Assembly (NCBI RefSeq): GCF_018687785.1
Contig: NZ_LTBL01000001.1
Coordinates: forward strand, 372,001 to 436,000
DNA from: Methanovulcanius yangii
Lineage (GTDB): Archaea; Halobacteriota; Methanomicrobia; Methanomicrobiales; Methanomicrobiaceae
DNA length: 64,000 nucleotides
Reading direction: 5' to 3'
Part shown: positions 4,233-59,043 of the stretch, one piece after another
Numbering within the stretch: position 1 is the first letter of the stretch
Layout of the letters: every line of letters begins with the position of its first letter
Program-made: the position numbers and the translations under genes
The notes under the pieces: generated by a model
What the model saw: the letters and a program-made list of their open reading frames with translations, nothing else
Database searches by the model: none
What the model was told of the DNA's origin: nothing

Positions 4233-5386
4233 ATCCCGCAACACTTGAGTATGTGAAGCAGAAGTTTCATTCTTATTATTCGCGGGCATTTCTTCCAACA
4301 CCGCCGTCACTGGAACAGCGGGAATGGGGGTTCATATTCTTTGATCAATCCCCAAAAGTCCATATGCGGCGTCATATGGCATTTCATTCCCGGGATGAGG
4401 TGACCTCATATGTCCGCACAATGGTCCCCCGACATATGTATTTTTCAACGGCATATTATGCTCTTCCGTCAGCCGCCACAATGAATGAAAAAGAATGGTG
4501 TGGCGCAGATCTGATCTTTGACCTCGATGCAGACCACATTGTTCAGAAGGTGCCGTACGAGGTGATGCTTGAGCGGGTAAAGGCAGAGACATTCAAGCTC
4601 ATTGCAATGCTGACCGATGAGTTGGGTTTTTCAGAAAAATCCCTTCATCTGGTTTTTTCCGGTGGTCGTGGATACCATATTCATATTCGTGATCTGGAAA
4701 TCCGGCAGTGGGAAAGTGCACAACGCCGTGAGCTTGTGGATTATGTCTGTGGGATAGGTCTTGATCCCGCAATTATGCTGCAGGGTAGAGAGGGTGATGG
4801 AGGTGGGTGGCCGTTGCGATATCGCGAGGCACTCATGGAAGAAGTGCAGCAATACCTTGAGATGGAACGTGGGGAGGCATTGCGGTGTCTGGCCGGTAAA
4901 AAGGGAATAGGGAAGGGGTCAGCTGAGAAGTTTATGAACTCAGCTGTAGACCTTGTTGCTGCCCTTTCGCATCCATCGACCGCCGTCATTCCGTCACGGG
5001 TTCTTCAGCTCATCACTTCGGAAGAATACCCCCCGTTGAAAGAACGAATCGCCAGTCGGGCGGCACTTACCGATGAGCCCGTCACGACGGATGTCAAACG
5101 GCTCATCCGTGCTCCCGCCTCTCTTCATGGAGGTTCAGGACTCAGGGTCGTTGAATTGTCCGGTCCGAAGGATCTCGAGGCATTCGATCCGTTATGTGAT
5201 GCTGTTGTGGACTTCGGAGAGGGCATGGTAAATGTCGATTGTGCATTTCCGCTCGCAATGACTATGATGGGAGAAAAGTATACTCTTACGAAGGGGCTTC
5301 AAAAAGTTCCAGAAGAGATGGCAGTATTCCTCTGCTGCAGGGGGATTGCAGAAATTGCGGCGGTTGCTCCTCCACCGGTACATTGA
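4229..5386 (+). CDS. priS: DNA primase small (catalytic) subunit
   Basis: This 385-residue protein is the archaeal-eukaryotic primase catalytic subunit, which synthesises primers for DNA replication with PriL. The catalytic acidic motif DLIFDLDADH is near residue 95 and the nucleotide-binding motif SGGRGYHIHI near residue 144. RLIRAPASLHGGSGL near residue 290 is the conserved C-terminal core. It overlaps elp3 by 4 nt and is followed 18 bp later by a GINS gene, a replication pairing common in archaea. PriL is not in this window. Confidence 0.96.
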   Translation: MNPATLEYVKQKFHSYYSRAFLPTPPSLEQREWGFIFFDQSPKVHMRRHMAFHSRDEVTSYVRTMVPRHMYFSTAYYALPSAATMNEKEWCGADLIFDLDADHIVQKVPYEVMLERVKAETFKLIAMLTDELGFSEKSLHLVFSGGRGYHIHIRDLEIRQWESAQRRELVDYVCGIGLDPAIMLQGREGDGGGWPLRYREALMEEVQQYLEMERGEALRCLAGKKGIGKGSAEKFMNSAVDLVAALSHPSTAVIPSRVLQLITSEEYPPLKERIASRAALTDEPVTTDVKRLIRAPASLHGGSGLRVVELSGPKDLEAFDPLCDAVVDFGEGMVNVDCAFPLAMTMMGEKYTLTKGLQKVPEEMAVFLCCRGIAEIAAVAPPPVH

Positions 5387-54786: not shown

Positions 54787-56568
54787 TTAGGAGGGGGGAA
54801 ACCTCCTGGCATCTGTTGCAATATCGACAATTGCGGGCAATTTCGAACCGAATGCATCGGAAACTGCTTGTTTGAGTTTATCTGGTTTCTCTACCTTTAT
54901 GCCGAATCCTCCGCATGCACGTGCATATTCCGCAAAATCCGGATTGAGAAGTTCGGTGGCATAATTGGGATAATTTTCCGTCATCTGTTCGACCTGGATC
55001 ATTCCCAGTTGCTTGTTGTTGAGAATGACCACCACTATCGGGAGATCATATTTAACTGCGGTGACAAATTCGGCCATCGCCATGGAAAATCCCCCGTCAC
55101 CTGTAATGCAGAGGACGTCTTTGTCCGGGTATGCGAGCTTTCCTGCAATGGCTGCCGGAAGCCCAAAGCCCATCGCCGCAAGATAACCCGACATTGCAAA
55201 GCGCTGGTGTTGCATGCGGAAATTGCGCCCGAACCACCATTGGTTCTCACCGACGTCCACAGTTATTACGGCATCATCCGGAATAATCTCAGAGAGGGTC
55301 TTCATGATGAAGGGGGGGCGGACAGGAACTGCGGATGCGTCTGCTTCATGGTCTCTTTGGTTATTCCAGTCATGCTTCATATCCGCAATTATTTTTAGCA
55401 CACCTCCTGGTTCCCGTGGTATGCAGAATTGCTGCAATGCAGGAGTTACCAGTGAGCATTCACCCCACAAGGGGTATGCTCTTGGTGAAATTCCAAGCTT
55501 TATCGGATTGATATCCACCTGGATTATATCGGTGTCGAGGGGGACGTTTGTATAGGTGGAAAATCCGACCCCAAGGGTGATGAGGAGATCCGCTTCCCTG
55601 ACCAGATCACGGGTTGAGGGTGCCCCAACCGATCCCAGAATCCCCACACTCCAGGGATGATTCTCCGGGAGAATTCCTTTGGCCCGGAAGGTGGTCGCAA
55701 TCGGTGCTGCGATGGTTGATGCGAACCGTACAACTTCTTCAGCAGCGCCACAGGCTCCCCATCCGGCAATGATCACCGGATTTTCGGATGCGTTGATTCT
55801 TTCAGCGGCCTTTTCGATGAGGGATGACTCCGGAAGTATGAATGGGTTGGCAATAATGGATTCTCGCCTGCAATATTCTAATTTGAGGGGTAGTTTCTGA
55901 ATGTTATTTGGGATGGACAACTGGGCAACCCCATGTTCCAGAGTTGCATATTTCATTGCCCTTGTCAGAAGAATGACTGTTTTTTCCTTGTCATAGATGG
56001 TATTGTTGTAGACAGTCATGGGACGGAAGAAGGCATCCTGATCGATCTCCTGGAATCCACCCGGTCCTGAGTACTGGATTTGAACCTGGCCGTTGAGGGA
56101 GAGCACTGAGGCATGATCCGCCTGCGCGTCGTATAGACCGGTTGCAAGATTTGTTGCCCCCGGACCGGCAATCGTCAGGCACGCCGCGATCTTTCCTGTC
56201 AGCTTGTTATAGGCGGATGCCGCCATTGCAGCATTCTCCTCATGTCGTACAACGATATATCTGAGTGAATCATTTTTTCGCAGGGCATCCACCAGACCGA
56301 GTGAAGATGTACCTGGAAGGCCGAAAACATATCGCACTCCCCATTTATCCAATTCAGTGATAATTACGTCCGAAACGGTCTTTTCGGAGTCCGCATGAAC
56401 GTCGGTGGTGTCGATTTTCTCAAATGCACTTTTTGGTGCACCACATACCGGACATGTCCAGTCGGAGGGGAGATCAGTAAATGCGGTATCCGCTGCGATC
56501 CCCATTGACTCCTCCCCCTTTTCTTCATTGTAAATATATCCACATACAGTACATTTCCATCCAGCCAT
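54787..56568 (-). CDS. Rubredoxin-ThDP enzyme fusion (pyruvate oxidase/acetolactate synthase-like)
   Basis: The 593-residue protein starts with a complete rubredoxin domain (residues 3-52; Fe ligands Cys6, Cys9, Cys39, Cys42 in CTVCG and CPVCG). A full ThDP-dependent enzyme follows: catalytic Glu in [10 protein letters not shown] (about 110), a FAD/nucleotide-type middle domain (about 250-400) and the ThDP motif [12 protein letters not shown] ... [10 protein letters not shown] near residue 490. The family includes pyruvate oxidase and acetolactate synthase. The fused rubredoxin suggests electrons from substrate oxidation leave through it, but the substrate is unknown. Confidence 0.9.
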
Positions 56569-56643: not shown

Positions 56644-56952
56644 TCAATCGGATGGAATCGGTTCGGATTCAAGCATGAGCATACCGAATATCACTTTTTC
56701 CAATATCTGTGAGACATATTTGATCTTTTGCATTTCATCGATGTTTTCGTAGCGGTGGATATCCGCGTATATCTGGATTCGGACGAGACCGAAATGCAGA
56801 TGATCCAGATCCTCGGCCGTCAGGGTAACTGCCTTATGGTAGATCGGTTCAACAGCGAGGGGAAGGGTGTTGATGTTTTCAAGACAGGGGACAATGTCGG
56901 AGAAGATTGCAAGCGGGTCCTTCCCGCCTGAAAGGATAAGCAAGAGATCCAT
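56644..56952 (-). CDS. Unknown small protein (102 residues)
   Basis: This 102-residue protein matches no family I recognise. It opens MDLLLILSGGKDPLAIFSDI and has a regular mix of strands and helices, including HFGLVRIQIYADIHRYENID. No signal peptide or membrane helix is evident. It is on the same strand as the rubredoxin-ThDP gene, 75 bp upstream of it, and lies 98 bp after mrp, so it could belong to either transcript. Codon composition looks similar to neighbours. Function is unknown. Confidence 0.7.
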   Translation of the reverse strand: MDLLLILSGGKDPLAIFSDIVPCLENINTLPLAVEPIYHKAVTLTAEDLDHLHFGLVRIQIYADIHRYENIDEMQKIKYVSQILEKVIFGMLMLESEPIPSD

Positions 56953-57050: not shown

Positions 57051-57953
57051 TTAGTTTTCCGTTTTTATCTGTGCGAGGATGTTATCCATGACCTCATCAA
57101 CCTTTTCCCACGTTGCCTGGTGCTGTTTATCCCCTGCCTTTCTGAGAACAAATGGCCGGCCTTCGTCACCTGCCTTTCGCATCTCCGGATCCAGAGGTAT
57201 TGCGCCCAGGAATGGGACACCAAGATCTTCTGCCGCCTTCTTTCCTCCGCCTTCTCCAAAGAGGTCGATCGCCTCACCGCAGTGGGGACATACCATTCCT
57301 GACATATTCTCTACAATGCCAAGCACCGGGTAACCCAGCTGTTGAACAAAGGTCACTGCCTTGGTGGAATCAAGAACGGCAACATCCTGCGGGGTGGTGA
57401 CGATAACCGCCCCATCGATGTTGGGTGCAAGCTGTGCAACTGAGAGGGCCTCGTCGCCGGTTCCGGGGGGGAGATCGACGATGAGGTATTCCATATCCCC
57501 CCAGTTTACATCCTCGAGGAACTGGCGGATTGCGGTAAACTTCATCGGACCACGCCATACAACAGGAGAAGACGTTTCCGGAAGGAGGAAGGCCATCGAT
57601 ACGACACCTAGTTTGCCGGTTATCTGGACGGGCTCAATCCTTTTCCCATCATATGACTGGAGCCTCTGATCCTCGACCCCAAGCATTTTGGGAATGTTGG
57701 GTCCGTGTATATCGAGATCTACGAGGCCGGTATTATAGCCCTTGTTTGCAAGGGACATGGCGAGGTTTGCAGCAACAGTGCTTTTTCCAACCCCCCCCTT
57801 CCCTGAAAGAACCAAGATGACGTGTTTGACGTTAATTTTCACTTTTTCCGTCATTGGATTGTTCTTTTTCGGATCATCACATGATGCCGCGCTTGTGCAG
57901 TTTTTACAGTTACCATCGCATTCCGGGGTCTGTCTTGCAGAGTTATCAGCCAT
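57051..57953 (-). CDS. Mrp/NBP35 family P-loop ATPase (Fe-S cluster carrier)
   Basis: The 300-residue protein carries Fe-S clusters to targets. The N-terminus has a Cys motif (CDGNCKNCTSAASC, residues about 11-24), as in Nbp35. The Walker A motif LVLSGKGGVGKSTVAANLAM is near residue 45, with DLDIHGPNIPKMLG following. CPHCGEAIDLFGEGGG near residue 220 holds the cluster-binding Cys pair. The start at 57953 is chosen; an upstream ATG adds 38 residues of unrelated sequence. It lies between an unknown gene and the RNase H-TrmO fusion. Confidence 0.93.
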   Translation of the reverse strand: MADNSARQTPECDGNCKNCTSAASCDDPKKNNPMTEKVKINVKHVILVLSGKGGVGKSTVAANLAMSLANKGYNTGLVDLDIHGPNIPKMLGVEDQRLQSYDGKRIEPVQITGKLGVVSMAFLLPETSSPVVWRGPMKFTAIRQFLEDVNWGDMEYLIVDLPPGTGDEALSVAQLAPNIDGAVIVTTPQDVAVLDSTKAVTFVQQLGYPVLGIVENMSGMVCPHCGEAIDLFGEGGGKKAAEDLGVPFLGAIPLDPEMRKAGDEGRPFVLRKAGDKQHQATWEKVDEVMDNILAQIKTEN

Positions 57954-58083: not shown

Positions 58084-59043
58084 TTAATGGTGCAAATCCC
58101 TTTCTTTATCCTTCTTAATGACTGGTTTTATATCGATCACCGGGGTGCCGTCAACAGCATCTATGCCTCTGACATGAAGGATGCGCCCGGTACGCGAGAT
58201 GAGTTTCACTTCTTCCAGGGCTAACGGGTTGGGTCTTGCTGGTGATCTGGTCGAGAAGACCCCCCTCGGTTTGGTATGTCCATGGGGGATGACGGTTAAC
58301 ACCTCCCTTTCAGCACGATCAAACCAACACTGGACAATCAGTTCATCTCCGTCCTGAAGGCCCTCGAGACCTTCTTCAAACTCGGGGAAAAGTTCGATGG
58401 TGGATATGCCTGATTCGAGACGTCCCTGGTGCGGTGCTTCACTCAGGGTGGAATATGGGGAGTGGACAATCCCGATGGGAGTTAATTCAATTCTGTTTTT
58501 TGCTTCCGGAGATGAAGGAATGGTGGACTTCTTCCGTTGTATTGGGATGATATTTATATTATCAAGGATCTCATTGCATTTTGCATCGGCAATGGCGATG
58601 AATGGATTCGTCCTTGGGACGTGAGTAAATGTAGTTGATTCAAATCGACTGAGCAGCTTTTTTACCTGGGAGAAACGCTCCTGAAGACCCCTGTCGCGGA
58701 CCTTGTATTCTCCGTTGATCTGACGAACCACAAGCTGACTGTCGGAGTAGATATTGATGGCAGACCATCCTTCTTCCCGAGCCTTCTCAAGCGCGTGAAT
58801 GATGGCAGTATATTCTGCCTGATTATTTGTACAGGTTCCGATAAATTTTCCTTGTTTATGAATGATATTCCCTCTTTGAACAACAATATAAGCCCAGGCT
58901 GCGTTTCCCGGATTCCCTCTTGAGGCACCATCGGTATAAATGTCAATCCCTTCGTCCATGTACTTTGACATAGGGTGAGATGGGCAAAAACCTTGTTCAT
59001 GAGAAGTCCTCAGATGGTGCGTATTGCATACCGGACAATACAC
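58084..59043 (-). CDS. RNase HI-TrmO fusion protein
   Basis: The 319-residue protein joins two enzymes. Residues 1-25 form a Cys/His cluster (CPVC ... HEQGFCPSH) of zinc-knuckle type. RNase HI spans about 30-165 with catalytic Asp38 (YTDGASRGNPG), Glu77 (NNQAEYTAII), Asp101 (YSDSQLVV) and Asp153 (ADAKCNEIL). TrmO, the SAM-dependent tRNA t6A37 methyltransferase, covers about 188-310 (IGIVHSPYS, HGHTKPRGVFSTRSPARPNP, VDGTPVIDIKP). The start is GTG 59043. Both halves look intact. A role coupling RNA/DNA hybrid removal and tRNA modification is unclear. Confidence 0.92.
   Translation of the reverse strand: MYCPVCNTHHLRTSHEQGFCPSHPMSKYMDEGIDIYTDGASRGNPGNAAWAYIVVQRGNIIHKQGKFIGTCTNNQAEYTAIIHALEKAREEGWSAINIYSDSQLVVRQINGEYKVRDRGLQERFSQVKKLLSRFESTTFTHVPRTNPFIAIADAKCNEILDNINIIPIQRKKSTIPSSPEAKNRIELTPIGIVHSPYSTLSEAPHQGRLESGISTIELFPEFEEGLEGLQDGDELIVQCWFDRAEREVLTVIPHGHTKPRGVFSTRSPARPNPLALEEVKLISRTGRILHVRGIDAVDGTPVIDIKPVIKKDKERDLHH

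Follow-up and report, generated by a model that had tools for sequence, protein, structure and literature searches.

The locus considered here raises the question of whether an RNase HI and a TrmO-like methyltransferase encoded in one frame truly form a single protein and, if so, whether the two halves work together. The frame lies on the minus strand of a 64,000-nt stretch of Methanovulcanius yangii DNA (contig NZ_LTBL01000001.1, positions 372,001 to 436,000; hereafter the window) and runs from 58084 to 59043 as 319 codons without interruption. A Pfam scan places RNase_H/RVT_3 at residues 33-152 of this 319-aa frame (E-values 3e-16 and 5e-20, respectively) and TrmO_N at residues 203-310. The N-terminal half scores 60.1 bits against PF00075 (cut-off 25.8 bits) and 72.1 bits against PF13456 (cut-off 21.6 bits), and is accordingly a type 1 RNase H domain; the C-terminal half scores 104 bits against PF01980 (E 6e-30; cut-off 26.8 bits) and 147 bits against the TrmO equivalog model NCBIfam TIGR00104 (cut-off 93). 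The fusion is real: both domains stand above curated cut-offs in a single polypeptide encoded by one uninterrupted frame, as a preliminary description of this DNA had proposed.

The 5' end of the gene was examined by comparison with the closest relative, a congener represented by a MAG (L007, the same locus as G002). After a stop at 4917, the frame in L007 offers only one in-frame start, the ATG at 5064 (L007 numbering), which corresponds to M29 of the window ORF, i.e., the ATG at window position 58959. The 5' DNA of the two relatives can be aligned only with a 23-nt gap, the Cys pair is missing in L007, and in the uninterrupted fused homologues a Met sits 6-9 residues ahead of the YTDG motif. 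Together, the sole L007 start, the gapped 5' DNA, and the Met near YTDG indicate that the coding sequence is most probably 58084-58959 (Table 1), which leaves the Cys/His cluster outside the gene. The N-terminal Cys/His cluster of the preliminary description is thus very likely untranslated, a product of the start that was chosen, and a zinc-like N-terminal motif was rejected.

Table 1. Features of the fusion gene and its downstream neighbours (window coordinates).
Feature	Position	Strand	Basis and remarks
Fusion gene RNase HI - TrmO_N	58084..58959	(-)	Most likely true CDS; 291 aa; ATG start; uninterrupted frame
RNase HI domain, DEDD active site	58558..58947	(-)	Pfam PF00075/PF13456; dN/dS ~0.05; Foldseek
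Variable interdomain linker	58492..58557	(-)	dN/dS ~0.6; 13-31 residues in 33 fusions; low pLDDT
TrmO_N (YaeB/UPF0066) beta-barrel methyltransferase domain	58108..58491	(-)	PF01980, TIGR00104, AF0241 match
Upstream in-frame stretch with reported Cys/His cluster	58960..59043	(-)	Probably untranslated; not conserved
Mrp/NBP35-type P-loop ATPase	57051..57953	(-)	PF10609 E 1e-98; downstream neighbour; ORF open from 58067
Conserved 102-aa ORF (orf102) after Mrp	56644..56952	(-)	No Pfam match; follows Mrp in most related loci

The fusion in the congener is 74-76% identical to the window protein. Across the order (232 genomes, taken to be Methanomicrobiales), matches over almost the whole length were found in 39 genomes. 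In two of these a TAG separates the domains; the other 37 are true fusions, a number far beyond chance, distributed over six genera of three families (g1, g5, and g9 of family f1; g14 and g21 of f6; g24 of f4), with the RNase HI-TrmO order kept throughout. RNase HI itself is present in 135 of the 232 genomes. The existence of two relatives in genus g12 with a TAG between the halves might suggest that an assembly error or a missed stop has joined two genes, but the frame is open in 37 genome assemblies, some of them single-contig, and both halves are under purifying selection (see below). The number of independent genomes already refutes such an artefact, the probability of which is negligible, and a sequencing or frameshift error between the domains was rejected. 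A sample of 393 genomes from the phylum showed no full-length fusion beyond the order, and a contig scan, which finds close relatives only, returned L007 as the sole whole-length match. At four RNase HI loci outside the order, no TrmO was found in the fetched stretch (that of L199 being nearly empty upstream). A literature search found no published description of an RNase HI-TrmO fusion, and the domain combination is apparently undescribed.

Unfused relatives carry the arrangement RNase HI - TrmO - (AFOR) - Mrp - orf102 at this locus, where AFOR is aldehyde ferredoxin oxidoreductase, and the split RNase HI and TrmO genes either overlap by ATGA or have a few nucleotides between stop and start. 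Two split relatives (G098 and G116; L178 at about 1610-1618, and L179) carry the genes in frame, with nothing but a TAG and a single codon ahead of the ATG, and are apparently intermediate between the split and fused states. Neighbouring RNase HI and TrmO genes, probably translationally coupled, would have fused by loss of the stop or by a small indel; since such an event between abutting genes explains the fusion, no new mechanism is needed. The stages of the process (overlapping genes, an in-frame single stop, and fused genes) are thereby preserved within one archaeal order. In most related loci RNase HI/TrmO is followed by Mrp, whose start at 57953 in the window is common to L007. In family f5, RNase HI is mostly found directly before Mrp with no TrmO, and in G020 it likewise lacks an adjoining TrmO. 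In trees, the fusions fall into three groups; the best trees require at least three changes, a single one being seen in none of the bootstrap trees, but a constraint placing all fusions together was not rejected (p-AU 0.203). A single origin of the fusion is thus neither established nor rejected by these trees. As a separate observation, in family f3 the RNase HI and TrmO genes are separated by one that encodes a Cas4/PD-(D/E)XK-like nuclease (L155 4508-5014; also L154, L156, L193, and L194).

The four acidic residues claimed for the RNase HI half are all present in the window protein (D38, E77, D101, and D153 in 319-aa numbering), and this DEDD set is invariant in 33 of 33 fused homologues. 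The AdoMet-site residues, transferred from Archaeoglobus fulgidus AF0241 (per PMC4132733) through an ungapped alignment, are likewise present in the TrmO half as Q206, R266, D295, and K306. Among the 33 fusions, Q206 and R266 are invariant, K306 is kept in 32 (with one gap), and position 295 is split between D (17) and E (16). Comparison of the window with L007 gave dN/dS values of ~0.05 (RNase H half), ~0.04 (TrmO half), and ~0.6 (22-codon linker), ratios that are rough because dS is saturated. Judged from these alignments, both halves are under purifying selection; across the 33 fusions the linker ranges from 13 to 31 residues. Neither half is visibly decayed in the homologues, in which active-site residues are kept, and the idea of the RNase H as a decayed binding module has no support, DEDD being invariant.

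By sequence, the solved structure closest to the C-terminal half is AF0241 (2nv4; E 5e-32), and the one closest to the N-terminal half is Halobacterium RNase H1 (4e19). The latter is also the best Foldseek match of the RNase HI half (TMt 0.93, 44% identity), and 2nv4 is among the Foldseek matches for the TrmO half. The AF2 model, computed from 30 fused homologues, comprises two domains with the same two folds and an unstructured linker, with pLDDT <50 over much of the linker, poorly modelled loops in the TrmO half, and a pTM of 0.49; with these features, no arrangement of the domains relative to one another is predicted. Halobacterium salinarum RNase H1 and Sulfolobus tokodaii RNase HI (2ehg) share the fold and the DEDD residues of the window domain, but neither is joined to a methyltransferase, and the Halobacterium enzyme has an N-terminal extension of its own that is absent from the window protein. 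Similarly, archaeal YaeB/UPF0066 AF0241 and bacterial TrmO share with the window protein the class VIII beta-barrel and the four AdoMet residues; AF0241 likewise lacks the C-terminal DPRxxY domain, but differs in having no N-terminal RNase HI.

The reading that is considered likely is that of a two-enzyme protein derived from fused neighbouring genes of a conserved methanogen locus RNase HI - YaeB/TrmO - Mrp, with halves that probably do separate jobs. The N-terminal half is predicted to be an active RNase HI, cleaving the RNA of RNA-DNA hybrids, and the C-terminal half an active AdoMet methyltransferase of the YaeB type. In AF0241 the AdoMet pocket is formed from two subunits (PMC4132733); since such domains are homodimers of this kind, the fusion is probably a dimer, in which two RNase HI domains would be tethered by floppy linkers to a TrmO-like dimer. 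The benefit of the fusion could be co-expression or nothing at all, with no functional coupling expected between the halves.

The name TrmO indicates the family only, and the t6A37 methylation that was attached to it is not upheld. Described as complete, the TrmO half is so for the archaeal type and incomplete for the bacterial/mammalian type, as the protein ends right after TrmO_N in the Pfam scan and has no C-terminal DPRxxY domain. Archaeal YaeB proteins lack this domain, which is needed in E. coli (Kimura et al. 2014, PMC4132733). As of 2014, archaeal tRNA had yielded no m6t6A; those authors suggest another substrate and give seven YaeB paralogues for Methanoculleus marisnigri (PMC4132733). 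The window genome itself contains four TrmO_N genes, so that a search for a separate trmO yields three paralogues beyond the fused copy: A, described below; B, the closest to AF0241; and C, which is divergent. Given the missing DPRxxY domain, the lack of detected archaeal m6t6A, and the four TrmO_N genes, the substrate of the fused copy may be tRNA A37 or something else. A reading to which somewhat less than an even chance is given holds that the TrmO-like half methylates a substrate other than that of tRNA m6t6A formation, and that the family diversified in these methanogens partly around molybdenum/tungsten metabolism. In addition to the proposal of Kimura et al. and the number of TrmO_N genes, this would agree with the position of paralogue A inside an ABC cassette (L188 3018-7111) that also encodes two SBP_bac_11 proteins, a permease, and an ATPase, the SBP_bac_11 proteins being, we infer, of the molybdate/tungstate type; the cassette hints that some archaeal YaeB proteins may act on something other than tRNA. 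Aldehyde ferredoxin oxidoreductase also adjoins TrmO in many split loci and in one fused locus, but its gene mostly runs on the other strand and is missing beside the window fusion. The TIGR00104 equivalog score above the cut-off further argues for tRNA, no tRNA mass-spectrometry data were found for the order, and no link between TrmO and tungsten was found in the literature. A different substrate can be reconciled with the fusion history given by the two-enzyme explanation, with which it competes solely over the function of the TrmO half. In either case, the fusion highlights archaeal YaeB proteins, enzymes whose substrate is unproven.

The preliminary description also proposed that the RNase H-like domain acts as a tRNA-binding or -processing module, which the sequence comparisons leave unsupported. 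In its fuller form, the proposal is that the RNase H serves the methyltransferase by binding or trimming tRNA or another structured RNA, replacing the missing C-terminal tRNA-binding domain. The lack of the bacterial DPRxxY domain in archaeal YaeB (PMC4132733) and the adjacency of the genes across much of the order are consistent with such a role, as is a Sulfolobus RNase HI reported, in a title cited in PMC1950709, to cleave double-stranded RNA. However, RNase HI stands without a neighbouring TrmO in family f5 and G020, many genomes have TrmO without RNase HI, and close relatives encode this RNase HI in a gene of its own. The invariance of DEDD and the short, variable, unstructured linker also speak against this role, which is considered unlikely. 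The RNase HI is not the only RNase H of the genome, which also encodes RNase HII. A slimmer chance is given to the fusion being a functional unit, i.e., a YaeB-type dimer that relies on RNase HI for access to a particular RNA (tRNA or hybrid RNA); if true, this would reveal the substrate of archaeal YaeB proteins, and coupling of both activities would tie hybrid removal physically to RNA methylation, a rare connection.

The explanation of two enzymes with separate jobs has a close parallel in the mycobacterial RNase HI-CobC protein (Rv2228c, MSMEG_4305; NCBIfam PRK07238), in which, as here, an N-terminal RNase HI is joined to an unrelated enzyme through a variable linker in a restricted lineage, the differences being the CobC-type phosphatase partner and the actinobacterial host. 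The RNase HI-CobC domains were concluded to be functionally dissociated in vivo, and that fusion to have probably been fixed by drift (PMC7466739); by analogy, uncoupled domains and drift are judged most likely here too. Counting against this explanation, the adjacency of the genes in the order and a possibly repeated fusion could reflect selection for a functional link and not drift. On balance, the gene fusion is real but probably undramatic. A second domain fusion is encoded nearby on the same strand (window 54787-56568), where a rubredoxin domain is fused N-terminally to a complete thiamine-diphosphate enzyme (TPP_enzyme N, M, and C), and genera g1 and g5 have this rubredoxin-TPP_enzyme fusion conserved at the same position.
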